From a virus, in IMG/VR virus record IMGVR_UViG_3300008448_012240, positions 1-32,647 of that record: a DNA stretch of 32,647 nt, one strand, 5' to 3'. Position 1 is the first letter of the stretch. Each line of letters begins with the position of its first letter. A program made the translations under genes and the position numbers. This document shows positions 4,145-31,881 of the stretch, one piece after another. Below the pieces are notes generated by a model. It saw only the letters and a program-made list of their open reading frames with translations, searched no databases and was not told the origin of the DNA.

Positions 4145-5274
4145 TTTATGTATTTTATAGTTTTACTAGAATAAAAATTATCGTGTATAATCACTCGTAT
4201 ATAGTTCATTCCGCTCTTTAACGCGGTAGCTATATCTAATCTATTTTCATTACTCGGTTTGGTGATTCTACGCCTATACTGCAATCTACCAAAATTATCG
4301 TAAATTATTACGTCGTATATATACTTTTCTCTGTACTTAAAATTAACAATTAGCTGTTCATTTATCAAATTTATTTCTGTAGTTTTACGATAATTTGAAA
4401 CATATAAATCTTCTTCTTTAATGGGTAATATTTTGTTACATGTACAACTCCCTCTGAGTGTGTCGAATATATAGGTTTCATTTGTGGCACTATTGTACGC
4501 ACCGGGAGTTGCTACTGTCGCAGATTGTATTGTCCACTTTGTCGCATCAAAATACTCAGCATCAGATGTTCCTACAAATGCTGCTGAAGTTCCCGACATA
4601 GCCACATTTGATATAAGAGGAGCAACCGCATTACCTACCATATCAACAGTAGTAGTGCAGCCTGAAACGTTCGTTGATTTGCCGTACACCACTCCATGTA
4701 TTAAATTAAACGATGGATCTCGAACCTGAATGCCATCTCCAGCGTTAGCTAACCCGATATTTGCCCAAGTGCCTGTTGATACATAAGTACACGCTGCGTA
4801 ATTGGTTCTCACAATACAACTTGAAGCAGCGGGTAGTGTCGTGCAATATTCAAGAGACAGGTGATTGCTTGGCACTATATAAACGCAATCATTATTTACC
4901 CAGTCATAAGGATCATCTGCAGGCAGTATTAAGTCCCTGTCCGCTGCGTTGTAAATAACAATAATAGCTCCTACTGGTAAATTGTTCCATGGAAGTTCAT
5001 TTTTAAATCTCATATGACCAGTGGCCATTCCAGATCCTGTGAAGTGATTAAGCGGTGAGAAGTCTCCATTATTGTCATCCAATACCCAACCGGCTATGTT
5101 TACTTTAGCTAATACACAATTTGAATTGGTTATTGTTGTGGCAGAAGACACTACTAGTTCTACCCACTCTTTAGCGCCACTGGCACCCTGTGAGAATTCG
5201 TTGATACGAATAGATTGAGCCGTTGTAGAGATGCATATCAATACATTAAACACTAAATACAATATGTTTTTCAT
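4141..5274 (-). CDS. Exported lamin-tail-domain protein with T9SS-like C-terminus, 377 aa
   Basis: A signal peptide (MKNILYLVFNVLICISTTAQ) is followed at once by IRINEFSQGASGAKEWVEL, the signature start of a lamin-tail domain, an Ig-like beta sandwich common in Bacteroidota secreted proteins and extracellular nucleases. The domain spans roughly residues 20-255, with several Cys pairs. The C-terminal 75 residues (VIIYDNFGRLQYRRRI ... LKSGMNYIRVIIHDN ... IKYIK) match a type-A T9SS sorting domain and align with the end of the 213-aa protein. Probably displayed on or released from the infected cell. Substrate unknown; no nuclease domain is seen. Slightly richer in small residues than neighbours, as usual for secreted proteins. 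Confidence 0.82.
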   Translation of the reverse strand: MKNILYLVFNVLICISTTAQSIRINEFSQGASGAKEWVELVVSSATTITNSNCVLAKVNIAGWVLDDNNGDFSPLNHFTGSGMATGHMRFKNELPWNNLPVGAIIVIYNAADRDLILPADDPYDWVNNDCVYIVPSNHLSLEYCTTLPAASSCIVRTNYAACTYVSTGTWANIGLANAGDGIQVRDPSFNLIHGVVYGKSTNVSGCTTTVDMVGNAVAPLISNVAMSGTSAAFVGTSDAEYFDATKWTIQSATVATPGAYNSATNETYIFDTLRGSCTCNKILPIKEEDLYVSNYRKTTEINLINEQLIVNFKYREKYIYDVIIYDNFGRLQYRRRITKPSNENRLDIATALKSGMNYIRVIIHDNFYSSKTIKYIK

Positions 5275-15187: not shown

Positions 15188-16474
15188 TTACTCGATTGTT
15201 AATAGACTCATGTCAAATTCTGGGTTGTTGACGCGCAAATCGTTTCGTATCAATGCTTTGTTTTTTATAGAAAGCACCGCTGATCCAAATTCGTAATCAC
15301 CGAATTCCTCCACTTGATCTATTAACTTGTGTAAATGCTGTATGTTTTGGTAGATATACTCTAAATTTTCTGTTGAATGTACATACAAACATGCGTTATA
15401 GTTATTTTTACTGTCTGCTAATTTATATATTTTATTGTAGTCCGTTTGATTATAGAATTTTTTAGATACTTCCCAATCTTCATTTGAAAATCCATAAAGT
15501 ATATTTGAGTAGCTATGTTCTGATATAATTTCTTGTCTATTTTTAACTTTATCTAATAGTTCAGGTTTAATTAAATAAATTCTACTAAAATACGGTTCTA
15601 AATTAATAGCTAAGTCTAGAAGTAAATCGTGTTCGGAGTCTATTAATAGATCTATATCATACTTAGATAGTTTAGATTCTCCGTGATTAAAAGATCCCCA
15701 TTTTCTAACGAATCTTCTGAGCTCTACCATGTCTGCTTTATTTTGCATTGCGACTCTAGTTTGAGCTTCTTTATTTTCTGAATCGAACCAATTTTTTCCT
15801 CTTGAAGATACACAAGTGAAGTGGTATACGTTAGATGCAAAGGTTTGTTTCAATTTTATTCCTAATTGCATACATCTTTGTACCAAATCTGAATCGCACC
15901 TTGATCTTCTGAACAACGTGTCATATCCTCCCATTTTGTTCCATGTATCTTTATGAAAAGTATAAGGAGCAAAGAAATAGTCTATGCTTTTATTTGACTT
16001 TACTTTTTCTGAATATAGTAAAAAGTCTTGCATATTGAACTCTTCGGGAGTCAAACCAAAATTAGCGGTAAACGTTTTATCAGATTGCCCATGGAGGGGT
16101 GGTTCTATTCTTGTAGAACTCATTATGGTATTTTCTTCTAAACTATTTAGTACATTTGTATCATAATGTTTTGATACAATCATATCGCTTTGTAGATAAC
16201 TAACTATGTCATATTTAGCGAGTTCTACTATTAAATTGCAGTTTCTTTCTGGTCCGACTACTGGTTTAACTTTGTGAGTAACGATCTTTAAATCGTGAAA
16301 ATCTTTTTTAATGGATTTTAAATAGTCTAAAGTGCCATCGTTGTCTGAATCTATAAAAACTAGAATTTCATGTTCTTTATTGTCTAAATTGTCTCTTAGA
16401 GACTTTAATAGCAGCTTTGTGTATTCTAAAGTATTTGGCCCAGTATTAGTAGCAAATGTTATCTTTTTGCTCAT
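15188..16474 (-). CDS. Glycosyltransferase, GT2-like GT-A fold, two-part, 428 aa
   Basis: Transfers a sugar from a nucleotide-sugar to an unknown glycan acceptor. The N-terminal half is GT2-like: ITFATNTGPNTLEYTKLLLK, ILVFIDSDNDGT near residue 37, a metal-site region SYLQSDMIV near residue 93, and FRRSRCDSDLVQRC near residue 192, resembling the GT2 acceptor region. The C-terminal 170 residues are not recognised and look like an extra alpha/beta domain (SNILYGFSNEDWEVSKKFYN). The start at 16474 is preferred over 16510: it lies one base after the FkbM-type stop with an A-rich leader. This is the last gene of the island. Confidence 0.82.
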   Translation of the reverse strand: MSKKITFATNTGPNTLEYTKLLLKSLRDNLDNKEHEILVFIDSDNDGTLDYLKSIKKDFHDLKIVTHKVKPVVGPERNCNLIVELAKYDIVSYLQSDMIVSKHYDTNVLNSLEENTIMSSTRIEPPLHGQSDKTFTANFGLTPEEFNMQDFLLYSEKVKSNKSIDYFFAPYTFHKDTWNKMGGYDTLFRRSRCDSDLVQRCMQLGIKLKQTFASNVYHFTCVSSRGKNWFDSENKEAQTRVAMQNKADMVELRRFVRKWGSFNHGESKLSKYDIDLLIDSEHDLLLDLAINLEPYFSRIYLIKPELLDKVKNRQEIISEHSYSNILYGFSNEDWEVSKKFYNQTDYNKIYKLADSKNNYNACLYVHSTENLEYIYQNIQHLHKLIDQVEEFGDYEFGSAVLSIKNKALIRNDLRVNNPEFDMSLLTIE

Positions 16475-16475
16475 T

Positions 16476-17123
16476 TTATAAATTTTCTTTATGTACAAAA
16501 ATCTTATCAACGCGTACGCTAGATACTTCTACGTATCCCAAATCTTTCATAAAATTAAGTACATTCTCCGTATTAGCATCGTATCTATTCAACCACTTTT
16601 CACAAAACTCTAAACACACGGTTGGTTTATATTTTTTTATAGTTTCTACTGTGCCTAATAAAGCTTCTAATTCATAACCTTCTACATCGTATTGTATTAA
16701 ATCGCACGCTGGTAAATTAAGATCATCTATTCTAACAGTGGGCGTGTAACCTTGTCCGGAAATATGAACACCTCCTGTATCTATTGGTTTATCTTCTCTA
16801 ATCAATTGTTGCGTTTGTACAGTTTTTTTGCTATTGCCTACGCAAGCTTGCATCTTTATAACATTAGGAGAAGTTACATTTTGATTCAAACAGTAAAAAT
16901 TAACCGGGTCTGGCTCAAAGGTGTACACAGCTTTAAAGTGAGATACAAATTGACTTAGTATGAATCCGCAATTACCTCCCGCTTGTACCATAACGTTTTT
17001 ATTTTTGACATGCGGTAAAACATAATCTACTAAATCTATACTATCATTTTGACCCGGCCAACTAGTTACATCATTCTTTGGCCACACCCATTTGTTATCC
17101 TTTATTATAACTAGATCTTTCAT
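16476..17123 (-). CDS. FkbM-family methyltransferase, 215 aa
   Basis: An S-adenosylmethionine-dependent methyltransferase, FkbM-type, likely methylating a sugar hydroxyl on the island's glycan. The SAM site is VMVQAGGNCGFILS (44-57) and VYTFEPDPVNFYCL (67-80). Other family signatures are IDDLNLPACDLIQYDVEGYE near residue 133, which includes the catalytic-region Asp/Glu, and ALLGT..TI. The gene overlaps the SDR gene by 29 bases and runs one base from the GT gene downstream. Confidence 0.88.
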   Translation of the reverse strand: MKDLVIIKDNKWVWPKNDVTSWPGQNDSIDLVDYVLPHVKNKNVMVQAGGNCGFILSQFVSHFKAVYTFEPDPVNFYCLNQNVTSPNVIKMQACVGNSKKTVQTQQLIREDKPIDTGGVHISGQGYTPTVRIDDLNLPACDLIQYDVEGYELEALLGTVETIKKYKPTVCLEFCEKWLNRYDANTENVLNFMKDLGYVEVSSVRVDKIFVHKENL

Positions 17124-18015
17124 AATTTATAGTTTTTGTTAATCCTTCAACCAAATCTACATTATTTTTTATATCTAAAGCGTTTTTTAGTTTCTTGTTA
17201 TTTCCACACACATAATCAAATGTGGAGTCTCTGTTCTTATTTTCATCAAAAACTAATTTACTGTTGCTATTAGTTAACTTTTTAATCAGCTCTATTATTT
17301 CTCTTATCTTATATTGATTTCCTGAACAAAGGTGATAAACTCCTAGCCTGTTTGTTGTTATTAGTTGGTAAACATAATTTGCAAAATCATCGATGTATAG
17401 ATAATCTACCGTCGATTTACACTCGTCTAAAATTACTTCTTCATTTTTTATAAACTTACTAACCAATCTCGGTATAAGTCTAGTTTTAACATCGTTTGGT
17501 CCGTATATGTAACATGGTTTTATCCAAATCCAAGCTATTCCATACGCTTCACAAAGCATTTTACTATAATTCTTAAAAGTTAATTTTGAAAGTCCATATA
17601 AATTAGTTGGATTTTCTAAATCTTCTTCGCTTATGGGATAATTTATTTTTCCATTTTCTGCGAAACTTCCAAAACCAACAAACATAGGTTTACTTTCCAA
17701 TTCATTTATAATTTCTATTAATTTTATGCTCGAAGGTAAATTATGATAAAATTGTCCCGGATCGTTAATATCTGCATGACTGTTTCCACCAAACCATCCA
17801 CAGTGTATTACAATATGCGGTTTAAAAGCTCTTATTGATTCCTTGTGTAATATCAAATCATCATTATCTGATTTTATATATTGTACTCTATCCAATACAT
17901 CTGTTATATTGTTACAGTTTTTAGAAAACACAAGAATGCTATGATTATCTTTTAAAAACCGCCTAACTACATTTGATCCTAAAAATCCATTCCCACCAGT
18001 AACAATTACATTCAT
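17095..18015 (-). CDS. NAD(P)-dependent SDR epimerase/dehydratase/reductase, 306 aa
   Basis: An extended short-chain dehydrogenase acting on a nucleotide-sugar. Rossmann motif is TGGNGFLGS (G7, G10, G13); catalytic residues are S117 in GFGSF and Y140-xxx-K144 in LYGLSKLTFK; a substrate-binding KPCYIYGPND follows. The reaction cannot be told from sequence: C4-keto reduction, C3/C5 epimerisation or reduction of a branched side chain (YerF-like) are possible. It sits between the FkbM and HAD genes with overlaps, in the run that also contains the ThDP enzyme. Confidence 0.87.
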   Translation of the reverse strand: MNVIVTGGNGFLGSNVVRRFLKDNHSILVFSKNCNNITDVLDRVQYIKSDNDDLILHKESIRAFKPHIVIHCGWFGGNSHADINDPGQFYHNLPSSIKLIEIINELESKPMFVGFGSFAENGKINYPISEEDLENPTNLYGLSKLTFKNYSKMLCEAYGIAWIWIKPCYIYGPNDVKTRLIPRLVSKFIKNEEVILDECKSTVDYLYIDDFANYVYQLITTNRLGVYHLCSGNQYKIREIIELIKKLTNSNSKLVFDENKNRDSTFDYVCGNNKKLKNALDIKNNVDLVEGLTKTINYERSSYNKG

Positions 18016-18389
18016 AGATTGAGCAGCGTTTTTATAGTATTTGATTGTGTTTCTATATCGCTGAACTGTAAAGCTCTGTCATCTATATAATAATCAGCCA
18101 TTATTTTTGGACTCGGTCCTGATAACTTAATTTGATCGGGTAAATTCTGGTTGACTGCATCAAACTCTAACCCTTTTTCTTTACACCATTGTATTGCCTC
18201 CGTTAAAACAGGGTATTGTTCGTTGTCGCCTCTGTTTGTCCACAGTATTAACTTGTGCCCAGCTTTTCTTAGATCTATTAGAATTTTCATTAACTGTTTG
18301 TGTTGTTCATTCTGCTCTCCTATTTTTGGAAAAGCGTATTCACACAGCGTACCGTCAAAGTCTACTGCAATTTTATATATTTTATTCAT
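18012..18389 (-). CDS. HAD-family phosphatase, 125 aa
   Basis: A minimal HAD hydrolase without a large cap. Motif I is AVDFDGTLCE (D10 nucleophile, D12 acid), motif II ILWTNRG (48-54), and the terminal acidic motif is ADYYIDDRA (98-106). Lys near KIMADYY is the likely motif III Lys. The closest known kin are small Bacteroidota HADs of BT0820 type. In the island it could remove a phosphate from a sugar-phosphate or an aldolase product; this is inference. Overlaps the SDR gene by 4 bases and the Fe-S gene by 8. Confidence 0.85.
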   Translation of the reverse strand: MNKIYKIAVDFDGTLCEYAFPKIGEQNEQHKQLMKILIDLRKAGHKLILWTNRGDNEQYPVLTEAIQWCKEKGLEFDAVNQNLPDQIKLSGPSPKIMADYYIDDRALQFSDIETQSNTIKTLLNL

Positions 18390-19542
18390 GTATTTCTCCT
18401 ATGTTTTCTGTTACTAAATTTTTTGCTATTTGATAAGCGCTTTTTATTAAATTATCATCCTCATAAAAGTTCTCTTCGTCTATATACTTTTCTATAATGT
18501 TTCTCGCAAAAGTACCGATAGCTATACCATTGCATCTAACACCTACAAGTTCAGATAGTTTCTTACTGTGCGAATTTGTACCACCTGATAAAACTATATA
18601 CACGCCTTGATGATGTCCATGAGCCCTATATACTTTATTTGTAATAACTTTATCTCCATCCTTTTTCACTGATTTTTTATCTAGTCTGATATTGAATTTT
18701 TTATTTATGACGTCTGCTGTTGATATCGCTTGCAGTGTCGTGTTATAATCGTCTGCTCCTCCACTCATTGGATAACCGTCTGCCTGAATTATAATTTTGT
18801 TATTAGATATTCTCTTTGCGTTTTCTATTCTATGTTCCAAGTTTAAATTTCCCAAATTCAATCTATCTAAACACATAGAGTTAAAATTATTTGGGTTTAT
18901 TTCGTTTATTAATTCCCACTCCTTTAAAGTAATTTCTTCCTCACCAACTGCAGCATGTAATTCAAAAGTCTCTGCTCCTGCTTCCATACACAAAGGTAGC
19001 AATTCTCTTAACTGTCTTTCGTTATGTCGATATGATATGATGTCGTCTTTGGGGCATATGTTGCTACATTTTCCGCAACCTATACAAAGATCTTTTATCA
19101 CTATCTCTTTACTAGGATCTTCTACTTCGTAGCTACCTCCAAGATTTATATAGTGTTCTAAATTCTTTTCAAATCCAAACGGTATAGCGTTTGTGGGACA
19201 CACAGGAGCGCACAGGCCACACGATACACACGTGTTGGGGTTTATATAAGACTTTCTAACGTGATGATCTCCAGGCATTCCTATGCTAACCATGATGAAT
19301 GGTCTTGTTGTTAAGGTAATACCAAGTTTGCTTGCATATTGAAATGCCATGTCTATACCTTGACCAGCGTATTTAACTACTTCAACATTAGCTGATACGT
19401 CTAATACCTTTGCACCCGCTAAAGTGTAAACGAAAGCCAATTTTTTAACGTGATGCTTATCTTCGTTTCCTGCTCCACAAATAAGCTTAAAACATTTCTC
19501 TTGATTCAGGAGTCTCTGAAGTGTACTATACCTTTCTTGCAT
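18382..19542 (-). CDS. LdpA-like protein with two [4Fe-4S] ferredoxin motifs
   Basis: 386 aa. The first 95 residues (CFKLICGAGNEDKHHVKKLA, TLAGAKVLDVSANVEVVK) resemble LdpA of cyanobacteria, a TIM-barrel-like Fe-S protein. Two complete ferredoxin motifs follow: C105-x2-C108-x2-C111-x3-C115 and C153-x2-C156-x2-C159-x3-C163. The last 220 residues look like an LdpA/dihydropyrimidine-dehydrogenase-type alpha/beta barrel (IIIQADGYPMSGGADDYN, YIVLSGGTNSHSKKLSEL). LdpA senses redox state in cyanobacteria; here it lies between HAD and aldolase genes in a sugar operon. It might carry electrons to the [2Fe-2S] dehydrase, which otherwise lacks a reductase partner. This is inference, and a direct radical or reductive step is also possible. 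Confidence 0.75.
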   Translation of the reverse strand: MQERYSTLQRLLNQEKCFKLICGAGNEDKHHVKKLAFVYTLAGAKVLDVSANVEVVKYAGQGIDMAFQYASKLGITLTTRPFIMVSIGMPGDHHVRKSYINPNTCVSCGLCAPVCPTNAIPFGFEKNLEHYINLGGSYEVEDPSKEIVIKDLCIGCGKCSNICPKDDIISYRHNERQLRELLPLCMEAGAETFELHAAVGEEEITLKEWELINEINPNNFNSMCLDRLNLGNLNLEHRIENAKRISNNKIIIQADGYPMSGGADDYNTTLQAISTADVINKKFNIRLDKKSVKKDGDKVITNKVYRAHGHHQGVYIVLSGGTNSHSKKLSELVGVRCNGIAIGTFARNIIEKYIDEENFYEDDNLIKSAYQIAKNLVTENIGEIHE

Positions 19543-19543
19543 T

Positions 19544-20299
19544 TTATTTTCTATTTTTTAATAAGCCTATTCTTTCTGAGTAATCTGCGCTTAGCTTTGA
19601 AGATATAGATAACTTATACTGTAACCACTCTATCTCAAAGTCAAGAGCTTTTTGTATATTATTGTCTATATTAACTATATTTGATTTGTTTAAACCAACT
19701 ACAACATTTCTTGTTTCTATTCTATCTAACAAGCCTTTTGCGAAAACGTCTTTTACAAATTTGGTACTCCTTGTAGATACGTTTCCTCCCATAGTAGTAA
19801 CATAATTGTATTTTTTAGCCTTTGTTAGTATGTCTTCAACCTTATCATAAATAAAGCTGCTATCTACTTCTGACTTATTTAGATTGTAGGACTTAGAAAA
19901 GTCTGATCTACCTACGATTATGCCTTTCAAATGACCGTGACCATTTTCTAATATGCTATCTATGTTTTCATAAGACGTCTTACTTTCTATAACTACATAA
20001 GAATCTGCTCTATTCGGATAGTCTTTCATCATAGTTATAAACTTATCTAAGGCGAATGGTGTTTCTACCATAGGCGCGATTACGCCGTTTATTCCCATTC
20101 TTATACAATTGTACAAATCGCTCTTGGCTTCGCATCCACCTATCTTCACGAAAGATTGTAGTCCGCATATCTCTGTTACTCTTTTAAATGCAACAACATC
20201 ATTTAATAAAACTCCTTCGTCTTCGAAAGATTGTTTCATACCTATGACACCCCAATTTTTACCCAGGTTATCTAAGCTCTGTTTAAGATCAATTACCAT
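19544..20299 (-). CDS. HpcH/HpaI or CitE-like aldolase, 251 aa (first of two)
   Basis: A TIM-barrel aldolase/lyase related to the phosphoenolpyruvate/pyruvate superfamily. Signature elements are GINGVIAPMVETPFALDKF (near residue 78), SYVVIESKTSYENIDSILEN and GIIVGRSDFSKSY. The VIES Glu and VGRSD Asp are the expected Mg ligands. Such enzymes make or cleave 2-keto acid bonds, typically using pyruvate. Substrate unknown. The gene overlaps the second aldolase by 11 bases; the pair shares fold but not close sequence. Confidence 0.78.
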   Translation of the reverse strand: MVIDLKQSLDNLGKNWGVIGMKQSFEDEGVLLNDVVAFKRVTEICGLQSFVKIGGCEAKSDLYNCIRMGINGVIAPMVETPFALDKFITMMKDYPNRADSYVVIESKTSYENIDSILENGHGHLKGIIVGRSDFSKSYNLNKSEVDSSFIYDKVEDILTKAKKYNYVTTMGGNVSTRSTKFVKDVFAKGLLDRIETRNVVVGLNKSNIVNIDNNIQKALDFEIEWLQYKLSISSKLSADYSERIGLLKNRK

Positions 20300-20993
20300 T
20301 TTCTATATCTTTTAATGATTGTAAAATAAAATCTGTATCCATTCCCCAAATTAATAAATTGGGTCTATCTTTTTTTTGTTTTCTAAACCTTTCTATATCT
20401 TGTTTGGTTGGTAAAAATAAACCTAATTTATGTATTGGAACACATTTATAAATCAAGTCCATTTTATTTACGAAATTATCATCTTCAAATTCACCGGGTT
20501 TCAATAAACTCGAAGATATATCGTAAGGACCTATCAAATAATAATCTACTTTTGAAGCTAGCTCTAATAATTTATCTAAATTATTTATTGCTTGTGATGT
20601 TTCTACTTGTATTATTATTGTAGGTTTATTGCTACCCAGCTTGTGTTTGCCCCATCCGTTTTCTCTCACCAATCCTATTCCTCTATTTCCTCCTTTAATT
20701 GGATAATTGCAGTATTCTATTATTTCTTTGGCGTAAGACTCATCGTTTACTGTAGAAAACACAACGCCGTCTATTCCAGCGTCTAAGCACATTCTTACCA
20801 ACTGCTTATTTAGATCAGTAAATCTTACAAAGCACTTCTTACCACTCAACGTAATTACCTGTATGCACGAGTAAAGAGTTTCATTGTTGAAATGTCCGTG
20901 CTCTGTGTCTATCAACACTCCGTCTAAAGTAGAGTAAGTAAGTAGCTCTGATATTAGGGGAGATGGTATGGTTTGTAGTGTTAAATCTATCAT
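20289..20993 (-). CDS. HpcH/HpaI-family aldolase, 234 aa (second of two)
   Basis: A class II pyruvate aldolase. DGVLIDTEHGHFNNETL (24-40) matches the family's 'D...D.EH' segment, followed by FVRFTDL, GIDGVVFSTVND, GIGLVRENGWG, then IIQVETSQAINNLD (metal Glu) and YLIGPYDISSS (metal Asp). All catalytic positions look intact. Retro-aldol use would yield pyruvate, the donor used by the ThDP enzyme encoded next door; a forward use would extend a sugar or aldehyde. Overlaps the ThDP gene by 4 bases. Confidence 0.86.
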   Translation of the reverse strand: MIDLTLQTIPSPLISELLTYSTLDGVLIDTEHGHFNNETLYSCIQVITLSGKKCFVRFTDLNKQLVRMCLDAGIDGVVFSTVNDESYAKEIIEYCNYPIKGGNRGIGLVRENGWGKHKLGSNKPTIIIQVETSQAINNLDKLLELASKVDYYLIGPYDISSSLLKPGEFEDDNFVNKMDLIYKCVPIHKLGLFLPTKQDIERFRKQKKDRPNLLIWGMDTDFILQSLKDIENGN

Positions 20994-22765
20994 CTTAGTT
21001 TGTAAGAAAGTTCATTAACGGTTATCATATTTGATTCTATCTGCTCTATTGACAGAAGTGGAGACATCTCTTCCAAAGGTGGCGCAAGTATTGCGTCTGC
21101 TACTGGAACTCCTTTAACTTTTGGCACTAAATCCTGTTCTGGATTCATGTGACACTCGTAGATAGCGTAGCCGTCTTGATTGAAAAAATCCTCTAAAGAT
21201 GACGACTTTGAATCGAAGTACGGTATGCCAAAAGCTGTTGCTATTTTCTCAAAACTGGGTAACGTAACGCCAGTATTTGGATCTACTCCCGTATACCTAC
21301 CGTTAAAAAGCATTTTTTGTGTATGCTTAATGAATAGATAGCCTTCGTTGTTGAATACTACTATTTTTATTGGAAGGTTATATCCGACCACCGTTTGTAG
21401 TTCTTGTAGATTCATCATCATGCTTCCGTCTCCGTCTAACAATACTGCTTTCTTTCCGCTTAAAGCTGCGCCTACTGCAGATGGCAACCCGTGTCCCATT
21501 TCTCCCAAACCGTTTGATGCAAAAGCTATTTGATTCTCTTTTATCTTGAAAGCTTGATGAGCGCAAGGTAACGGAGTTCCTTGGCCGATGACTAATATAT
21601 CATCTTTGTGCATCAAGTCAGACAATCTGTTGATCAAGACGTATGAATTATCAAACTCTTTGTCGTCCTCTTTGTGTGTGTCTTCTATTATTGGAAAGTC
21701 TGAATTGTATTTTACGCACCTATCATACCACTCGGAAATATCGTTGTTGTAACTGTGTTCTTGTAGAAGATATGTAATTATGTGTTTTACGTCGGTATGA
21801 ATCTTTACATTGTATCTAATTGGGTGTTTGTTTAATTCATTCTCATCATTGTTCACCATAACTATCTTTGCATTTGGAGCAAAGTTATCTATGTTGTACC
21901 CAGTTTGGGGTAAAGCCAATCTACTTCCGAGTACTATTAATAGATCACAATTCTGTAGTATGAAGTTTGCTCTTCTCTGTCCGTAAAGACCTGGTGTTCC
22001 GAAGTTGTAAGGATGATCATGAGACAACACGTCTATAGCCGACCAAGACAGGAGTACTGGCATTTTGTATGATCTTACTAAATCATCAAATACCTTTTGG
22101 CTTTTTGATGCTTTTATTCCATATCCTCCCAATATCACGGGCCTCTTGGCAGTTTTTAATAAATCTAGCAATTCTCCAACGCTTACAGCTGCTAAATCTG
22201 GTTTTGGTTCTTTAAATACAGTTAGTTCGGATTCGTTGACTGTCGCACTTTGAACGTCGAAAGGCACATCTATCCAAGCAGGTCCATGTCTATCATTTAA
22301 AGCGGTGCTGTACGCTTCATTAAGATCTTTTAGTATATCGTTCTTGTCTAAAACAGTCTTAGCATACTTCGTCACTTTTTTTACCATATCAACCACATCA
22401 AAGCCTTGAGTACCCATCATTCTAAGATCTGCGTGTTCTTTTATATACTTAGTAGATTCTTGTCCAGATATTACTAAGCAGGGAATGGAATCTGCCCAAT
22501 TACTAATGACTCCAGTTATCGCATTGGCAGATCCTGCTCCAGCTGTAACTATAGCAGCAGACAAATTTCCAGTTGCTCTATAATAAGAGCCAGCAGCCAT
22601 GACTGCGGCCTGTTCGTGATGAACATACACGAGTTTTATAAAATCCCCGCCTAGATTTGATATAGAGTCAAATATGTGGGAGTTAGCAGACCCTATTATT
22701 CCAAAGACCACTCTTATATCCCTTTGTATTAGAAAATGTGCTATTAGATCACTAACTTTTACCAT
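20990..22765 (-). CDS. ThDP-dependent enzyme, acetolactate-synthase/YerE type, 591 aa
   Basis: A thiamine-diphosphate enzyme that probably decarboxylates a 2-keto acid and transfers the resulting acyl unit. Three domains: PYR (1-170) with the catalytic Glu E51 in HHEQAA, a central domain (190-340) with the FAD/nucleotide-like LLIVLGSRL, and the PP domain with GDGSMMM at 445-451 and NN at 472-473 (GDG-x25-NN ThDP motif). Full length and intact. Related enzymes in surface-polysaccharide loci (YerE) add acetaldehyde from pyruvate to a 4-keto-3,6-dideoxysugar. The presence of a DdhC-type dehydrase and a 4,6-dehydratase in the same operon makes that role plausible. Acetolactate synthesis for amino acids is less likely here. 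Confidence 0.88.
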   Translation of the reverse strand: MVKVSDLIAHFLIQRDIRVVFGIIGSANSHIFDSISNLGGDFIKLVYVHHEQAAVMAAGSYYRATGNLSAAIVTAGAGSANAITGVISNWADSIPCLVISGQESTKYIKEHADLRMMGTQGFDVVDMVKKVTKYAKTVLDKNDILKDLNEAYSTALNDRHGPAWIDVPFDVQSATVNESELTVFKEPKPDLAAVSVGELLDLLKTAKRPVILGGYGIKASKSQKVFDDLVRSYKMPVLLSWSAIDVLSHDHPYNFGTPGLYGQRRANFILQNCDLLIVLGSRLALPQTGYNIDNFAPNAKIVMVNNDENELNKHPIRYNVKIHTDVKHIITYLLQEHSYNNDISEWYDRCVKYNSDFPIIEDTHKEDDKEFDNSYVLINRLSDLMHKDDILVIGQGTPLPCAHQAFKIKENQIAFASNGLGEMGHGLPSAVGAALSGKKAVLLDGDGSMMMNLQELQTVVGYNLPIKIVVFNNEGYLFIKHTQKMLFNGRYTGVDPNTGVTLPSFEKIATAFGIPYFDSKSSSLEDFFNQDGYAIYECHMNPEQDLVPKVKGVPVADAILAPPLEEMSPLLSIEQIESNMITVNELSYKLR

Positions 22766-23721
22766 ACGAATTTGTTCTTATAGTAATTTACAATATCTTT
22801 TAATTCTGTATCAAATTGTTTTTTGGGTGACCAACCTAAAGATCTGAGTTTATCATCATTTAATGCGTATCTTATGTCTTGTCCTGGTCTATTACAAGAA
22901 AAGTCGATGTACTTTGTATAGTAACTTTCATCTAGTTTCATTTGTTCAAACTCTTCTATAATTTTTACCACAGTATCCATGTTCTTTTGCTCAAACCCGC
23001 CGGCCACGTTATATATCTCTCCAACTTTTCCCCTTTCGATTAACGTAATTACGGCAGCAGCAGTATCTTCAGCGTGTAACCAATTTCTATAGGGTTCTCC
23101 GTTATTATGTAAAGGTATTTTTCTACCTATATTCAAAAACTTTATTGCTTTTGGTATTAGTTTCTCAACATATTGACCCATTCCGTAATTATTTGTGGGT
23201 CTAACAATAATATAAGGAATGTTATGAGTTCTTCCCCAAGCCATAACCAGCATGTCAGCTGCCGCTTTTGTAGCCGAATACGGGTTACTGGGTTTTAGTA
23301 TGTCTGTTTCGTAGTGATCGCCACTTTCTATGTCTCCGTAAACTTCGTCAGTGCTAAAGTGTATCAATACAGGTTTTTTTCCGTTTTCGCTTCTATAGTT
23401 TTTTATTAACTCGAGAAGATTGTGTACACCATCTATGTTTGATTTCACAAACTCTAAGCTGCTCATTATTGAATTTCCTACGTGCGTTTCAGCCGCTGTG
23501 TTTATTATGTAATCGCAATCGTAAAGAAACGTTAATTCATTTATATCACAATGCACAAAAGAAAAGTTTTTGTTTTTCTTAAATTCAGTTAGCAAATCTC
23601 TATTCGCAGCGTAAGTTATTTTATCAACGCCTTTAACGTACCAACCAAGCTCTAAACACTTCCTCGTTACGTAAGATCCGATGAAACCCAAACAACCTGT
23701 AACATATACTATTTTTTTCAT
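22759..23721 (-). CDS. NDP-glucose 4,6-dehydratase (RmlB/RfbG type), 320 aa
   Basis: Converts NDP-glucose to NDP-4-keto-6-deoxyglucose, the branch point for deoxysugars. Rossmann motif G9-CLGFIG; catalytic region HFSTDEVYG (T124, D125, E126) and Y148-xxx-K152 in NPYSATKAAADM. RPTNNYGMGQYVEKLIPKAI and PYRNWLHAEDTAAAV are typical RmlB segments, and the C-terminus NRPGQDIRYALNDDKLRSLG matches too. Sequence is nearer RmlB (dTDP) than CDP-glucose dehydratase, so the nucleotide is uncertain. No RmlA, RmlC or RmlD is visible. Overlaps both neighbours by 4-7 bases. Confidence 0.92.
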   Translation of the reverse strand: MKKIVYVTGCLGFIGSYVTRKCLELGWYVKGVDKITYAANRDLLTEFKKNKNFSFVHCDINELTFLYDCDYIINTAAETHVGNSIMSSLEFVKSNIDGVHNLLELIKNYRSENGKKPVLIHFSTDEVYGDIESGDHYETDILKPSNPYSATKAAADMLVMAWGRTHNIPYIIVRPTNNYGMGQYVEKLIPKAIKFLNIGRKIPLHNNGEPYRNWLHAEDTAAAVITLIERGKVGEIYNVAGGFEQKNMDTVVKIIEEFEQMKLDESYYTKYIDFSCNRPGQDIRYALNDDKLRSLGWSPKKQFDTELKDIVNYYKNKFVW

Positions 23722-25367
23722 ATTAAGTCTTTTATGTATTTATTATATATCTTATCATTATCGTATCTATATTTTAAAGCCAATTCGTAGTTCTCCTCTA
23801 TAATTGTTTTGTCTATATCATAACCTCTGTTTCTTATTGTTTTTAATACTTCTAAAAGCTCTTCATGCGTATCAAAAGTAATTATTCCTTTTTCATTAAA
23901 AAAATCTGAAATGTTTGTACATCCTCTATAGATTGGAATAGTGCCTGTTAAAAAGCAATCCAATATCTTTTCAGTAAAATAGTTTTTATATATACCATTT
24001 TCTATAGCAATAGAATACTTATAATCTTTTAAACCAATTAATTTTCCATTTATTGGGTTATAGCCCATTCCATACACATCTACAGTAGAATCGTTTGCTA
24101 ATATTAACTCAACACAAGAAACTCGAAATCTGTGACCTTCTGTAAAAGTTTTGTTTGAACTTATTATAGATACGCCTTTACTTTTATCATATATTGAATA
24201 TAGACTTGTGTCTGAAAGTGTAGGATATTCTCTCGTATGTACGCTTTTGTTTAACACACACTCGTATCCTCCATTTCTAAATACTGCATTTGGTAATGTC
24301 AGCAGTATTTCGTCATAAGTGAGTATACGATCAAACATCTTATAATTTTTGTATACAATATCGTAAACTCTCTGTTGTTCGAACAAGTATGGAGGCTCGT
24401 GTATGTCAGCTATCACCGGACACTTCTTATCTATGCTTATTTGCCCTTCGACATACTTAATAATCTCCATATCTGGGATTATTACCGCATCAAACTCTCC
24501 TTCGTGAAGATTATATACGTAGGTAAAGTCTTTTGGTATGTCGTTATTTTCTCTACTTCCACCAATAGCGTTTATCTGAGGTAATTTTTCTCCAGTTAGG
24601 CCTTCTTTGTAGTGTTTTTTGTTTCTGATTTCAATTTCATATTTCATGTTATCTTCAGACTCTCTGTGCCTAGTTCTTATTTGACACTGTTCGCTTGCGT
24701 TCCAAACGTAGGTTGGAAAATCAACAACGCCTATCTTTTCTTTTGGACACATTTCTAAACAGGGATAAGCAACCGCTAAATCTGGCGCATGATAGAACCA
24801 CTTGTTATTGTATGTTGATTTTATGTCATTAAGATCTATACTTTTTGGTAAAAATCCTCTAAAAGTTAGTAAGTGACTAGCTCTCCACACATCTCTCCTA
24901 TATAGTTTAAACTGATGCACAAAGTCTGGATATGGTGTGTTTTGTGGATTAGCTTTTGTAACATTTTCCGATCCATCATATACATAAAACTCTCCGTATG
25001 TCATCCAAACATCGTGTTTATTGTAGTAGTTGTTTAAATTTTCTAACACGTGTTCATCTATTAACCAATCATCTCCACACATAGATACGCATATTTCATC
25101 GTCTTCTAGTGATTCGTAAAACCTAACGTAATTATATATCGCTCCTCCATCAGCTCCAAGATTTATTTCATTTCTTATGAGATTAAACCTATTATCATTT
25201 TTTATAAGATCAGAAACTATTGAATTTGTGTTGTCTGTAGAGCAGTCGTCTACATAAACTACACTAAAATTTTTATAAGTTTGATTAAGCACACTAGCTA
25301 TATTGTAATACGCCCAATCTTCGTTGTTATAAGATGCAATTATTATTTTGAACTTATTTTGTTTCAT
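23718..25367 (-). CDS. Bifunctional glycosyltransferase: GT2 fused to GT10-like
   Basis: 549 aa with two catalytic domains. Residues about 1-250 are GT2: IIIASYNNEDWAYYNIASVL, VVYVDDCSTDNT, VSMCGDDWLID, then a CPKEKIGVVDFPTYVWNAS segment. Residues about 300-549 resemble GT10 (fucosyltransferase-like): RVSCVELILANDSTVDVYGM, then YKYSIAIENGIYKNYFTEKI (about 455-475), CFLTGTIPIYRG and a DTHEELLEVL tail. GT10 enzymes usually use GDP-fucose or related sugars. A GT2-GT10 fusion would add two sugars in succession. I do not recall it as a standard pair. Located directly downstream of the GT34-like gene. Confidence 0.83.
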   Translation of the reverse strand: MKQNKFKIIIASYNNEDWAYYNIASVLNQTYKNFSVVYVDDCSTDNTNSIVSDLIKNDNRFNLIRNEINLGADGGAIYNYVRFYESLEDDEICVSMCGDDWLIDEHVLENLNNYYNKHDVWMTYGEFYVYDGSENVTKANPQNTPYPDFVHQFKLYRRDVWRASHLLTFRGFLPKSIDLNDIKSTYNNKWFYHAPDLAVAYPCLEMCPKEKIGVVDFPTYVWNASEQCQIRTRHRESEDNMKYEIEIRNKKHYKEGLTGEKLPQINAIGGSRENNDIPKDFTYVYNLHEGEFDAVIIPDMEIIKYVEGQISIDKKCPVIADIHEPPYLFEQQRVYDIVYKNYKMFDRILTYDEILLTLPNAVFRNGGYECVLNKSVHTREYPTLSDTSLYSIYDKSKGVSIISSNKTFTEGHRFRVSCVELILANDSTVDVYGMGYNPINGKLIGLKDYKYSIAIENGIYKNYFTEKILDCFLTGTIPIYRGCTNISDFFNEKGIITFDTHEELLEVLKTIRNRGYDIDKTIIEENYELALKYRYDNDKIYNKYIKDLI

Positions 25368-25368
25368 A

Positions 25369-26100
25369 TTACAAATAATCTTTAAACTCGTTTTGCAGTA
25401 AATCTATTCTGTCAGCAGTGTTACATCCAGTTAAGTGAGCAAGAAAGCAATCTTTATTCCATGGAGAAGGTATACTGAATCGTCTATTTGGGCCAGTTCT
25501 ATTCGGATCTGCTTGCCATACGCTAGTTCTTGTTATAAACTCGGGTACTGCGTTTAAGTATTTGTGTTCTAATAGTCCATAATGTCTTCTAAGTGGGGTG
25601 TTATTGTGTATTACATTTAAACACGTTTGATCAGCACCATGATCATTTAAGAAGTGTTTACTATATTCTATAAACGTACTATACAACTCTTGAACGTGTT
25701 CTGTTGATTTTATTATAAAATTACCGGCACTGAATCCAACATGACCAGTACTACCGTCCATAGCTACTGGCCAATCATAAGAAAAATATATGGTATGTTC
25801 ATCATTTATAAAATCATCTATTGTAAAATTATCGTTTGTTATAACAGAATCTCCATCAATCCACATGACTACGTCGTAGTGCTCTAGCATTTGAAATGCG
25901 TGTATGGTACGAGCAAATCCTAAACCAATCGGGTTTTTACTATCTACTCCTATATCTGGAAATGATCTAAAGGATCTAAGCACATTAAAATCGTATCCGT
26001 GTTTTTGAGTATACCTTAATTTAGAAGGTATCGTAAGATCTAGCACGGAGTGCATTGCTTCGTCACAACCGGTAATTACCAATACGTGTTTGTTATTCAT
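25369..26100 (-). CDS. Glycosyltransferase, GMA12/MNN10 (GT34)-like, 243 aa
   Basis: A GT-A enzyme likely using a nucleotide-activated hexose. HVLVITGCDEAMHSVLDLTI at the N-terminus, VVMWIDGDSVITND near residue 78 (the D-G-D metal motif), SAGNFIIKS, HGADQTCLNVIH and LAHLTGCN near residue 224 match the GMA12/MNN10 layout known from fungi and plants and from some phages and bacteria. Overlaps the upstream GT gene by 8 bases. Confidence 0.8.
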   Translation of the reverse strand: MNNKHVLVITGCDEAMHSVLDLTIPSKLRYTQKHGYDFNVLRSFRSFPDIGVDSKNPIGLGFARTIHAFQMLEHYDVVMWIDGDSVITNDNFTIDDFINDEHTIYFSYDWPVAMDGSTGHVGFSAGNFIIKSTEHVQELYSTFIEYSKHFLNDHGADQTCLNVIHNNTPLRRHYGLLEHKYLNAVPEFITRTSVWQADPNRTGPNRRFSIPSPWNKDCFLAHLTGCNTADRIDLLQNEFKDYL

Positions 26101-27076
26101 ATAATATATCTTTAAGTCTGTTATTAAAATGTTCTAAACTATAGTGTCTTTCATAGTTAGTTCTAGCTAAATTAGAACAGTACTCATAGAATGCACTGTC
26201 TTGTTTTAATTTATTTGCCAAAGATCTAGCTTTTTGTACATCGTTGACATTTACAGCTAAATCTGGGTGGCATAATCTCTGTGTATCTACCTCTTCGTTT
26301 CCTATGCATGGTATACCAAAGTACGCACAGTTTAACCCGAACGTACCTGCTGCTGCTGTAGGCATCAGGTGTACTGCATATTTAAAAGAACTTAATTGCG
26401 TCATCCAGTCAGTCCACATCACTCTTGGGAGCAGATTTACTAATTGACTCTCTCCGTCCCTAGTTGCGTGGGAAGTTTGACCCCAAATTGGCAATTCAAA
26501 TTCTTGTGCTACTATATAACTTTCGAATCCACCGTACCATCTAGCAAAGTTTCCTCCTATTATTACTTTGTCTTCTTTTGTTGGATTGATATTCTTGATT
26601 GTGTCGTGAATCATTAATGAAGGTAGTACATTCACGGATTTATCATGAGAAAACAAACCTTTATAGTAGGCTATGTCTGATTCATTATGTGCAAATATGG
26701 AATCGCACTCTAAAAGCATATTGTAAAAAGCTATCTGATCTGCTAATTCATAATCGTCGAATAACCAGTGTGGGCCCTCTTGAACATAGTGAACTTTCTT
26801 ATTGTTAGATTTTAATATCTCTATAAAGTTGGATTGTAAAATAGCACTTATTGGATTTTGTTTATCTACTAACTTTCCGCCTACAGCATTAAGATATACT
26901 TCCCCTTTTGGGAATATCACTAAAACATGATCGTATCCTTTAATCTCTTGATAATACCCCAAATACCTGTGGTCTGCGTTAAGCGCAAACATCCAAGCGA
27001 ACTCGGTTCTCATGTTTGAATGATTAGAAGGCACTTTACCTTCAAATCCCATTTCAGTTACAAAAGCTATTTTCAT
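26093..27076 (-). CDS. Glycosyltransferase, GT-B-like, 327 aa
   Basis: The C-terminal half has the GT-B nucleotide-sugar region: VIIGGNFARWYGG near residue 172, YAVHLMPTAAAGTFGLNCAY then FGIPCIGNEEVDTQRL, and LAVNVNDVQKARSLANKLKQ. The N-terminal half (KIAFVTEMGFEGK ... HYVQEGPHWLFDDYELADQI) is the acceptor-side Rossmann domain. Donor and acceptor unknown. Starts 4 bases into the stop of the dehydrase gene (ATGA), so the two are coupled. Confidence 0.78.
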   Translation of the reverse strand: MKIAFVTEMGFEGKVPSNHSNMRTEFAWMFALNADHRYLGYYQEIKGYDHVLVIFPKGEVYLNAVGGKLVDKQNPISAILQSNFIEILKSNNKKVHYVQEGPHWLFDDYELADQIAFYNMLLECDSIFAHNESDIAYYKGLFSHDKSVNVLPSLMIHDTIKNINPTKEDKVIIGGNFARWYGGFESYIVAQEFELPIWGQTSHATRDGESQLVNLLPRVMWTDWMTQLSSFKYAVHLMPTAAAGTFGLNCAYFGIPCIGNEEVDTQRLCHPDLAVNVNDVQKARSLANKLKQDSAFYEYCSNLARTNYERHYSLEHFNNRLKDILYE

Positions 27077-28395
27077 AGTTGAGACACAAACTTGTCTAAT
27101 ATCGTTTCAATGTAATCTGTTTTCTCTTTATTTATAACAGGACTCGTTCCTAAAAAGAATGTATCTGTTGTAACTTTTCTAGCTATTGGAAAGTTTTCAA
27201 CAACTTCTTTAGGGTCCATAAGACCTTGATAAGCGGGTTGTAGCATTATGTTTCCAGCAAAGTAAGGTCGTGTCTGTATTTTATTAGCTTCAAAGAACTG
27301 ACATATGTCTGACCTTTTGAAAGGCGCATCGTCTCTCAGAGTTATTGGAAATGCAAACCAATCTACATCTGCTCCAGGCTGTGCTTCGTGCAAATGAAAA
27401 AACTGTTCGTACTTCTTAAATGCTTTGAACAGGTTTTTATAGTTCTCTCTACGCTTCTGTCCAATCTCTTCTAACTTATCCATCTGAACCAAACCCATGG
27501 CAGCTTGTAGTTCTATGGGCTTTAAGTTATAACCGATCTCTTCGTAAACATACTTGTGATCAAATAAATCGTTTGGTAAAGAGGGTAGCCAATTATTGAA
27601 TCTACACCCACAAGATCCTTTTTCCAATAGGTTTTGTTTACCGATACAGTAACACCCTCTTCCCCATTCTCTAAAACTACGTATAATCCTTTCTGTATTT
27701 TGATCTTTACATGCTACGAATCCGCCTTCGGCCATTGTGATGTGGTGAGCTGGATAGAAGGAACAACTTGCTAATTCTCCAAAAGATCCTAAGGGTTTTC
27801 CTTCATAATAAGATCCTAAAGCATCGCAACAGTCTTCTAGTAAAATTAGCTGATGCTTTTCTACAATCTCCATAAGCCTCTTCATGTTGGGCGGATTTCC
27901 CAAAACATGGGCAAAAGTTATGACCTTTGCATCTGGATTTTCTTCACAGATCTTTTCTACGTGATCCAGATCGAGGTTTAGTGTGTCTAATTCAATATCT
28001 ACGAATAGCGGTGTAAACCCAACTTGAAGTATAGGGTTGATTGTGGTTGGGAATCCAGCTATAGGTGTAATTACCTTTGTGCCTTTGGGTAGATTTAAGC
28101 CTCTTTTTGAAGTTAAAGCCAACATCATAAGAAGATTAGCACTTGAGCCTGAATTAGCTAGTAAACCGTAATCTTTACCGAACTTTCTTGGAAACTTTGT
28201 TTCGAACTTATTTGCTTCTGCACCCAATACCAACCATTCAGTTAATAAGCTTTTAACAGCAGCTACGTACTCTTGAGAATCAAAGTACGGACCAGCGTAT
28301 TGAACCCAATCTTGACCAGCTTTCCAAGTTTTATCAGAGTGTTTTTGTTTTATGTACTCTGCAACTAATTCAAGTATTTGTTTTTCTGTAACCAT
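27073..28395 (-). CDS. [2Fe-2S] PLP-dependent 3-dehydrase (E1, DdhC/RfbH type), 440 aa
   Basis: Removes the C3 hydroxyl of an NDP-4-keto-6-deoxyhexose in 3,6-dideoxysugar synthesis. Fold type I aminotransferase-like, with EDCCDALGSYYEGKPLGSFG and FYPAHHITMAEGG, where His (217/218) replaces the PLP lysine, the hallmark of E1. Cysteines C190-x57-C248-x1-C250 reproduce the cluster spacing published for Yersinia E1; the fourth is C262 or C264, a few residues later than usual. EIGYNLKPIELQAAMGLVQM is also conserved. E1 needs an E3 ferredoxin-type reductase, which is not seen in the window; the LdpA-like protein or a host reductase may serve. Confidence 0.92.
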   Translation of the reverse strand: MVTEKQILELVAEYIKQKHSDKTWKAGQDWVQYAGPYFDSQEYVAAVKSLLTEWLVLGAEANKFETKFPRKFGKDYGLLANSGSSANLLMMLALTSKRGLNLPKGTKVITPIAGFPTTINPILQVGFTPLFVDIELDTLNLDLDHVEKICEENPDAKVITFAHVLGNPPNMKRLMEIVEKHQLILLEDCCDALGSYYEGKPLGSFGELASCSFYPAHHITMAEGGFVACKDQNTERIIRSFREWGRGCYCIGKQNLLEKGSCGCRFNNWLPSLPNDLFDHKYVYEEIGYNLKPIELQAAMGLVQMDKLEEIGQKRRENYKNLFKAFKKYEQFFHLHEAQPGADVDWFAFPITLRDDAPFKRSDICQFFEANKIQTRPYFAGNIMLQPAYQGLMDPKEVVENFPIARKVTTDTFFLGTSPVINKEKTDYIETILDKFVSQL

Positions 28396-30001: not shown

Positions 30002-31309
30002 TTAAACTTTTTTAAGTTGAGGGAGTTGTATCTTTTTTAGTGTAGGTAACTTGAGTTCTACCGGTTTTGGAAAACTGCTTAGAAAACCTTCAAGTTTTTC
30101 TTTCATTTTATCTAATGAAAAGTTTGTTTTTGCGTAGTGACTTTGTCTTTTAGCATTATCTGTATATTTGCTATAGTTTTCGTACACGTCTTCTAAAGCT
30201 TTTTTAGCAGCTTGTTGATCTACTTTAAACCATTGTGATTCTGCTAACAGCATGTTTTCTACAACTGCAGATCGATGAAGATTTTGAAGAATACCTGGTA
30301 AAAGCACAGTAAATTCTGAATTTAAAAAATCAACATGTCCTGACCAGCCTGAAGCTATGATTGGCTTTTTAGCGGTACAGAATTCTAACAACGGTCGACC
30401 ATATCCCTCTCCATGACCCAAATACACCATCGACTTTACTTTTGGGTGATTGTACATGTAGTTGATTTCCTCTTCAGAAATGTCTCCATGAAGGAAGTAA
30501 ATATTGGGTAAATCGTTTCCTCCAACGTATTTTCTTATTTCATCTATTTTTTCTAGTATTTCCTCTCTGTCAATGATACTATTCGCAACTTTTGTTGTTT
30601 TTAATATCAAAGCAGGTTTCTTCTTTCTATACTTAAAAGTCTCTAAGAAAATTTTAATTAAGCCCGAAACATTTTTTCTGTCTTCACCAAGATCTCCTTG
30701 CAACCAATGTCCAACGAATAAATAACAAAACTCTTCTTTTATTTCATCTAAAGATGTTATCAAATCATTTTTAGGTAAATCTTTTGGTTCTACGTAAAAG
30801 AACTTATTTAGATCAACACCTTCAAAAAGCACCTCAATAGGTTTCTCCAGTTTAATCTGTCTTCTAACATTGCCTTGTTGATCTCTTTCTTCAAATTGAG
30901 AACTTTGAAACACTTGCTTGGCGTGCTCTGAAGACACCAATGTCAAATTCATTCTGTTAACTCCGTCTACCCAACCAGCGTGACAAATTGTCGTCTCAAT
31001 CCCAGCTGTTACTCCTACGCTCATTAATTTACCAACGGGTTGAAACTCGTTAGGCACAGTAACTTGAAACCAATAATCTGGTTGTCGTGTTAATTGGTTG
31101 TTGGGTAAGAGAAGGCTATTTAAGAATCCCCATTCGGATTCATGTTGTTTGATATATCCCCACTCTGTAGCTCCCCAACGTTGAGACAGAATTTTTATTT
31201 CCCACTCTTCGTTCTTTAATTCATACAACGCTTTTACTACGTCTCTTGCTCGAGCGCCATAGCCTGAATGTGTGTCTATAGGACAACTAATTACGCATAA
31301 GGGTTTCAT
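30002..31309 (-). CDS. Glycosyltransferase GT4-like (GT-B), 435 aa
   Basis: A GT-B enzyme similar to ones encoded by many large aquatic phages. N-terminal VISCPIDTHSGYGARARDVV, CYLFVGHWLQGDLGEDRKNV near residue 193, GHGEGYGRPLLEFCTAKKPI at the E-x7-E region (about residues 298-317), and SGWSGHVDFLNSE. The C-terminus is a Lys/Pro/Leu tail with near repeats (LPTLKK, LPQLKK) that may act as a docking peptide. Likely glycosylates a virion or host glycan. Overlaps the endonuclease gene by 4 bases. Confidence 0.87.
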   Translation of the reverse strand: MKPLCVISCPIDTHSGYGARARDVVKALYELKNEEWEIKILSQRWGATEWGYIKQHESEWGFLNSLLLPNNQLTRQPDYWFQVTVPNEFQPVGKLMSVGVTAGIETTICHAGWVDGVNRMNLTLVSSEHAKQVFQSSQFEERDQQGNVRRQIKLEKPIEVLFEGVDLNKFFYVEPKDLPKNDLITSLDEIKEEFCYLFVGHWLQGDLGEDRKNVSGLIKIFLETFKYRKKKPALILKTTKVANSIIDREEILEKIDEIRKYVGGNDLPNIYFLHGDISEEEINYMYNHPKVKSMVYLGHGEGYGRPLLEFCTAKKPIIASGWSGHVDFLNSEFTVLLPGILQNLHRSAVVENMLLAESQWFKVDQQAAKKALEDVYENYSKYTDNAKRQSHYAKTNFSLDKMKEKLEGFLSSFPKPVELKLPTLKKIQLPQLKKV

Positions 31310-31881
31310 ATATTATTATTGTTTTTTTGTTTTTTTATTTCCCAAGCTTTTTTTAATTTTATTTTTGTTTCTTCAGAGTGTTTTTTGCCTTTATGTGCTT
31401 CTGATTGTTTTTTTCTTGTCTCTGCGCTAACACTCTTATCTTTATGTATTTTAGATATTATTTTTTTGGTTTCTTCTGAGTGTTTCTTATCTTTATGCGC
31501 TTCAGAGATACGTTTCTTTGTTTCTTCGGAGTGCTTTTTGCCTTTACGGTTATTTCTACCTTTGCTAGTTTGAGATATGCGTTTTCTAATGTCTTCAGAA
31601 GGGTTAGATATGCCTTCTCCGCCGTCTGTCACATTAACTAAAGTACCCAATCCAAGATCTCGTCTTCCATAAAAAGATATAAGATACTTCTCTATTGAAC
31701 ATGCTTCTTCCCAACAAATATCTTTATGTGTAATCATAACCAAATATTCGGTTTTTGCTGTATAACGTCTCCAAAATTTAGATCTACTATTTTTAGAATA
31801 TGCTCTTTTTTCTATTTTTCCAATTCCAATATAAAAAACTACTCCATCAATCTTTCTTATGTGTTGATATACTATTGCCAT
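31306..31881 (-). CDS. GIY-YIG endonuclease with NUMOD3 repeats, 191 aa
   Basis: A free-standing homing-type endonuclease. The GIY-YIG domain (about 1-90) shows VYQHI at 4-8, YIGIG at 17-21, catalytic Arg in KRAY (R26), Glu in CSIEKYL (E64) and the Asn of LVNVTDGGEG (N83). From residue 100, four to five NUMOD3 DNA-binding repeats follow (GKKHSEETKKRISEAHKD, then KKHSEETKKIISKIHKD and so on). It is probably an intron-less mobile element. It lies between an RHH gene and a GT gene, and its start is nested in the end of the RHH gene. Confidence 0.9.
   Translation of the reverse strand: MAIVYQHIRKIDGVVFYIGIGKIEKRAYSKNSRSKFWRRYTAKTEYLVMITHKDICWEEACSIEKYLISFYGRRDLGLGTLVNVTDGGEGISNPSEDIRKRISQTSKGRNNRKGKKHSEETKKRISEAHKDKKHSEETKKIISKIHKDKSVSAETRKKQSEAHKGKKHSEETKIKLKKAWEIKKQKNNNNI

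Follow-up and report, generated by a model that had tools for sequence, protein, structure and literature searches.

Among described routes to branched 3,6-dideoxy sugars, two come closest to the system considered here: that of yersiniose A (DdhA-D, YerE and YerF), in which an acetyl branch is taken from pyruvate, and that of erwiniose from Pectobacterium atrosepticum, a sugar with a long, functionalised branch. The erwiniose enzyme ErwE refuses pyruvate and prefers 4-hydroxy-2-oxo acid donors, and JanthE, from Janthinobacterium, also accepts 4-hydroxy-2-oxovalerate (PMC12247030, PMC12188165). A review of this enzyme class names viruses only as a possible source of new members (PMC12247030), and we found no report of viral erwiniose or yersiniose pathways in the open literature searched. 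Here we analyse the 32,647-base IMG/VR virus record IMGVR_UViG_3300008448_012240 (the whole stretch is called the window below), a fragment of an uncultivated Bacteroidota-type phage. An operon on the minus strand (28395 to 15188) very probably makes a rare sugar that bears an additional carbon side chain. Our reading of its enzyme families, key residues, gene order and module replacement, to which we give a probability of roughly two in three, is that the operon would make and transfer a 3,6-dideoxy sugar branched at C-4, akin to erwiniose and caryophyllose, the branch donor coming from a four-gene cassette, ald1-ald2-LdpA-HAD.

The operon reads, in order, E1-type dehydrase, glycosyltransferase-like protein, GT34-like glycosyltransferase (GT), two-domain GT2 + GT10 protein, 4,6-dehydratase, thiamine diphosphate (ThDP) enzyme, the aldolase-like ald1 and ald2, LdpA-like protein, HAD phosphatase, short-chain dehydrogenase/reductase (SDR), FkbM-type methyltransferase and GT2-type glycosyltransferase. 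Neighbouring genes overlap by 4-35 bp or lie 1 bp apart in the list of open reading frames, and every frame named in an earlier note on this DNA is on the minus strand where that note placed it. The first enzyme (27073-28395) is an E1/DdhC (RfbH)-type 3-dehydrase of the pyridoxamine phosphate/[2Fe-2S] class: it passes the NCBI RfbH/DdhC model (463 bits against a cut-off of 423), its closest PDB match is DdhC, H217 replaces the Schiff-base lysine, and the cysteine set is kept as C190-X57-C248-X1-C250-X11-C262, the last spacer being X11 instead of X7 through a four-residue insertion. The dehydratase (22759-23721), which adjoins the ThDP gene in most viral loci, is RmlB-like, that is, of the dTDP-glucose type; it reaches 304 bits with TIGR01181, below the cut-off of 365, and dTDP-glucose 4,6-dehydratase is still by far its best match among models and PDB entries. 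It fails the CDP-glucose 4,6-dehydratase (DdhB) model TIGR02622 (82 bits against 278), whereas cellular relatives of this system have a true CDP-glucose enzyme (489 bits). Neither DdhA nor DdhD was seen among the window proteins, as noted earlier.

The third core protein (20990-22765) is a YerE-like ThDP carboligase, predicted from its sequence to join a 4-keto sugar and a 2-oxo acid. Its best PDB match is JanthE (8rph; 1e-139, 42% identity), well above PpYerE and the acetolactate synthases (468, 264 and 222 bits for JanthE, PpYerE and acetohydroxyacid synthase (AHAS) I, respectively). It has the catalytic glutamate, E51, and a GDG motif at 445-447, and Y261, P286, Y290, H481 and K549 are the equivalents of JanthE Y268, P293, Y297, H494 and K567, all kept. 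Unlike JanthE, whose motif is the unusual CDG, the window enzyme has the canonical GDG, and further differences fall at JanthE positions 121 (Thr), 498 (Met) and 564 (Leu).

What surrounds the ThDP gene in other viruses carries the argument for the branch donor. We obtained 49 loci by scanning viral contigs that carry the ThDP enzyme, and gene content was counted over 59 viral ThDP loci, some of them near-duplicates. E1 and the dehydratase are both present in 44 of the 59, and E1, 4,6-dehydratase and YerE-like enzyme also co-occur in cellular clusters, in agreement with the branched 3,6-dideoxysugar part of the earlier proposal. In 33 of the 59 loci an acetylating acetaldehyde dehydrogenase (AcDH) and a 4-hydroxy-2-oxovalerate aldolase (HOA) are found, usually directly after the ThDP gene, and where tested they exceed the NCBIfam equivalog cut-offs (322 > 282 and 342 > 286). 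These are the DmpF/DmpG families, which convert acetyl-CoA and pyruvate to 4-hydroxy-2-oxopentanoate. LdpA is present in 14 of the 59 and never together with AcDH+HOA (0/59). The AcDH+HOA pair is missing from the window, and ald1-ald2-LdpA-HAD stands exactly in its place there and in L003, L005, L058 and L059, so that [dehydratase-ThDP]-[AcDH-HOA]-[SDR-FkbM-GT2] is exchanged for [dehydratase-ThDP]-[ald1-ald2-LdpA-HAD]-[SDR-FkbM-GT2]; in both versions the SDR follows, often with FkbM and GT2. The best reading of this exchange is that ald1-ald2-LdpA-HAD is an alternative module for 2-oxo acid supply, and the genes that seemed not to fit look like an interchangeable cassette for the side-chain building block. 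The earlier note could not fit the aldolases and the LdpA-like protein into the yersiniose scheme, and this part of it is not supported. Their genes stand in the slot that in related viruses AcDH+HOA fill for donor supply, and therefore an erwiniose/caryophyllose-type sugar is a closer model than yersiniose.

The ThDP enzymes themselves follow this division. LdpA-type and HOA-type loci form sister sets on the ThDP tree (SH-aLRT 99 and 96). The CDG motif of JanthE is found in the 34 AcDH/HOA-type enzymes and GDG in the LdpA-type enzymes of the window clade, and the fixed differences between the two types cluster near the ThDP motifs. The LdpA cassette also accompanies another, distant ThDP lineage (L006, L009, L020, L022 and L023).

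Within the cassette, ald1 (20289-20993) is by its residues a canonical HpcH/HpaI class II pyruvate aldolase, in which the catalytic histidine (H32), the arginine (R57) and the metal-binding E131 and D158 are all kept. ald2 (19544-20299), which accompanies LdpA in every one of the viral loci, found no match when its sequence was searched against PDB, and its predicted structure has the HpaI/SbnG fold (pLDDT 93; fold-search Z 19-20) with the metal-site residues E105 and D133. The two pyruvate-type aldolases of the earlier note thus hold for ald1, with its full active site, and for ald2 as far as the predicted fold. The third member of the ald2-LdpA-HAD set is a small BT0820-like HAD phosphatase (18012-18389), a weak but consistent assignment (89 against a cut-off of 165).

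The remaining cassette protein (18382-19542) is related to LdpA, a family that to our knowledge has so far been known only from the cyanobacterial circadian clock, where it acts in clock input. The Fe-S protein assignment made earlier stands in this broader form: the window protein scores 142 bits with the clock-protein model NF045992, far short of the 450 required, is homologous to clock LdpA and not the same equivalog, and lies in a sugar operon, not a clock setting. An AlphaFold model predicts an eight-strand TIM barrel with a ferredoxin-type segment for two [4Fe-4S] clusters inserted after strand 3 (pTM 0.76). The folds most like it are those of KDPG aldolase, ribulose-phosphate epimerase (RPE), TrpA and DERA (Z 16-17), and since these are generic phosphate-sugar TIM barrels the fold search names no specific reaction. 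Viral and cyanobacterial-type LdpA have in common the strand-end residues K19, C22, N26, D48, S86, E194, H196, S222, C224, R227, Q253, D255, S319-G-G-T-N323, G343 and R347, together with all eight cluster cysteines, and about 65 positions invariant in viral LdpA are also conserved in cellular members. Because strand ends and cluster cysteines are conserved in this way, viral and cyanobacterial LdpA are suggested to have a reaction in common, one that involves a phosphorylated substrate or flavin mononucleotide (FMN).

LdpA relatives are encoded at 18 viral loci and by a few cells, and a search for them in 50,697 cultured-phage records gave no match. They are present in 105 of 117 genomes of a Cyanobacteriota-type phylum sample; Flavobacteriales, Pseudomonadota-level and Chloroflexota-level samples each had one positive genome, the centre genome of the search, and in the Flavobacteriales genome the gene lies on a phage-like contig. 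An ald2-type gene and a HAD accompany LdpA in every viral locus, contiguously except in L009 and L020, where the ThDP gene lies between. Apart from L002, which is cut by the contig end, the viral loci show one of two contexts, either ThDP/E1/dehydratase or a CMP-sugar synthetase. The latter, as in the CMP activation of Kdo and nonulosonic acids, is PseF/NeuA-like or KdsB-like, is often joined by an MptE/Maf-like gene, and adjoins ald2-LdpA-HAD in eight viral loci and one Chloroflexi capsule locus. This last is a cellular copy of the cassette in a metagenome-assembled genome (L011:816-4649; ald2-LdpA-HAD-ald1-KdsB, near genes for aconitase B and CpsB). The two contexts interleave on the LdpA tree with about 10 changes, which indicates that pathways have traded the cassette with one another. 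A 2-oxo (ulosonic-type) acid as its product would fit both, because ThDP enzymes decarboxylate and CMP-sugar synthetases activate 2-oxo acids.

ald2 relatives also occur in cells (5/299 and 9/296 genomes in phylum-level samples around G002 and G003), and 10 of 13 fetched loci are ThDP/E1 clusters. Their partners there are a radical-SAM/SPASM protein with HAD-IIA, an AroB-related sugar-phosphate phospholyase, or a HAD alone, so LdpA-HAD is one of several partner modules. Branched-sugar clusters L119-L121 have ald2 with radical SAM/SPASM, to which L120 and L121 add a second radical SAM, HAD-IIA and NUDIX; L124, L125 and L127-L129 have the phospholyase beside ald2 (in L129, 425 against a cut-off of 400 for TIGR04425), possibly another donor-supply variant.

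In the pathway we propose, the 4,6-dehydratase would form an NDP-4-keto-6-deoxyglucose, probably dTDP-linked, from the host stock, and the E1 dehydrase would remove the 3-hydroxyl with electrons presumably supplied by a host ferredoxin/flavodoxin reductase. The self-contained cassette would provide the 2-oxo acid, with ald1 and ald2 contributing the class II pyruvate-aldolase fold, the LdpA-like Fe-S TIM barrel probably acting on a phosphorylated intermediate and the HAD then taking off the phosphate, although the order of these steps may differ. The YerE-like enzyme is predicted to decarboxylate this hydroxylated 2-oxo acid and place the acyl group on the C-4 ketone; the SDR (17095-18015), in the same slot behind both donor modules, is a candidate for the YerF role and would reduce the new branch ketone, and the GT2, GT10, GT34 and FkbM proteins would transfer and methylate the sugar, for which the host surface and the virion are the candidate destinations. 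As for erwiniose, a 4-keto-3,6-dideoxy sugar would receive its branch from a hydroxylated 2-oxo acid through a YerE-like enzyme, and related viral loci have genes for making a donor of just this type, 4-hydroxy-2-oxovalerate; in this comparison of pathways the window differs in having the aldolase/LdpA/HAD cassette for AcDH+HOA and a dTDP-type instead of a CDP-type dehydratase, and in being phage-borne. With yersiniose A the window has in common the 4,6-dehydratase, E1, YerE-like enzyme and SDR; it differs in lacking DdhA and DdhD, in a dehydratase that is not CDP-type, and in the donor module, the presence of which makes plain pyruvate an improbable donor.

Several points weigh against this pathway. 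The sugar product of all these loci is a prediction from the genes. ald2 fails the HpaI class II residue test, its catalytic histidine being absent and K52 standing at the position of the pyruvate-binding arginine; it may therefore not be a pyruvate aldolase, and may carry out variant aldol or other enolate chemistry. Furthermore, about half of the LdpA loci lack ald1, so that any exact output assigned to the cassette would be provisional. The LdpA model is of moderate quality (pLDDT 73), and its Fe-S insert, below 50, is unreliable. Finally, the change of donor module within the main ThDP clade is a single event on the ThDP tree, so that many of the ThDP loci are not independent.

An alternative is that the window makes two separate sugars, the ThDP enzyme adding a plain acetyl group from pyruvate, as in yersiniose, and ald1-ald2-LdpA-HAD making an unrelated ulosonic acid. 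The viral loci in which the cassette lies beside CMP-sugar synthetases, without ThDP or E1, are what such an arrangement would predict; the window operon, however, has no such synthetase, the cassette takes the AcDH+HOA slot and is never found together with that pair, and ThDP lineage tracks donor module, so that we consider two products unlikely. It could also be supposed that LdpA is the electron-transfer partner of E1 and replaces DdhD, since it carries two ferredoxin-type [4Fe-4S] motifs in an operon without DdhD. Co-occurrence across loci led us to reject this: 27 ThDP loci have E1, dehydratase and AcDH+HOA without LdpA, the CMP-synthetase loci have LdpA and no E1, and the conservation of barrel-mouth residues between viral and cyanobacterial LdpA points to an enzyme, which together make the DdhD role very improbable.

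Even less weight falls on the possibility, raised with the earlier proposal, that both proteins are ordinary enzymes, the ThDP protein a plain acetolactate synthase and the one resembling E1 an aminotransferase, in which case there would be no branched sugar. Acetolactate synthases are indeed the top NCBIfam names for the ThDP protein, but none of these models comes near its cut-off (the best reaches 322 of the 738 required), and JanthE is much the closer relative, with FAD and active-site residues kept; E1, with its histidine for the aminotransferase lysine, its cysteines and its RfbH score, argues equally against the second identity. We therefore rejected both.

Taken with the C-4-branched erwiniose/caryophyllose-type pathway that we favour, these comparisons indicate that uncultivated viruses have almost complete gene sets for C-branched higher sugars, in two versions with interchangeable donor modules. 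They also bring to light new YerE-like carboligases, whose donor preferences are predicted to differ. For LdpA, a long-unexplained family, they give a concrete biochemical setting outside the clock in which its reaction becomes testable. Somewhat tentatively, LdpA proteins may be Fe-S enzymes of the TIM-barrel type, perhaps flavin-dependent, whose substrates are phosphorylated sugars. Together with ald2 and HAD they would make up a hitherto undescribed pathway to 2-oxo sugar acids, one that viruses would connect either to ThDP branching or to CMP-activated glycans. In that case, the clock-input LdpA of cyanobacteria could be a metabolic enzyme too.

The operon's other genes are a glycosyltransferase-like protein without a Pfam family (26093-27076; 80% identical to its L003 counterpart), the GT34-like glycosyltransferase (25369-26100), the GT2 + GT10 protein (23718-25367), the FkbM-type methyltransferase (16476-17123) and, last, the GT2-type glycosyltransferase (15188-16510). 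The near-identical locus L003 keeps the full gene order, with 77-97% identity per protein, on a 70.5-kb contig that also carries phage SSB, UvsX, DnaB helicase, DNA polymerase, ribonucleotide reductase (RNR) and GroEL. These genes, with the IMG/VR origin of the window, agree with the earlier view that the pathway is phage-carried and rule out host contamination. The GroEL homologue on the L003 contig (L132, 18878-19999) matches phrog_5725 at 343 bits, and the same contig encodes a large secreted protein that by eye looks like a TonB-receptor fragment (L132:13603-15855).

Elsewhere in the window, on the minus strand, the proteins at 4141-5274 and 2484-3125 have signal peptides and similar C-terminal regions of about 60 residues that by eye resemble type IX secretion sorting domains, which Pfam does not recognise in either protein; should the resemblance be true, these would be phage cargo for host type IX secretion. 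The former also has a weak lamin-tail domain match. A secreted-looking DNA/RNA non-specific endonuclease is encoded at 1553-2137 (Endonuclease_NS, 80 bits), and a NUMOD3-containing protein, likely a homing endonuclease, lies between glycosyltransferase genes at 31306-31881.

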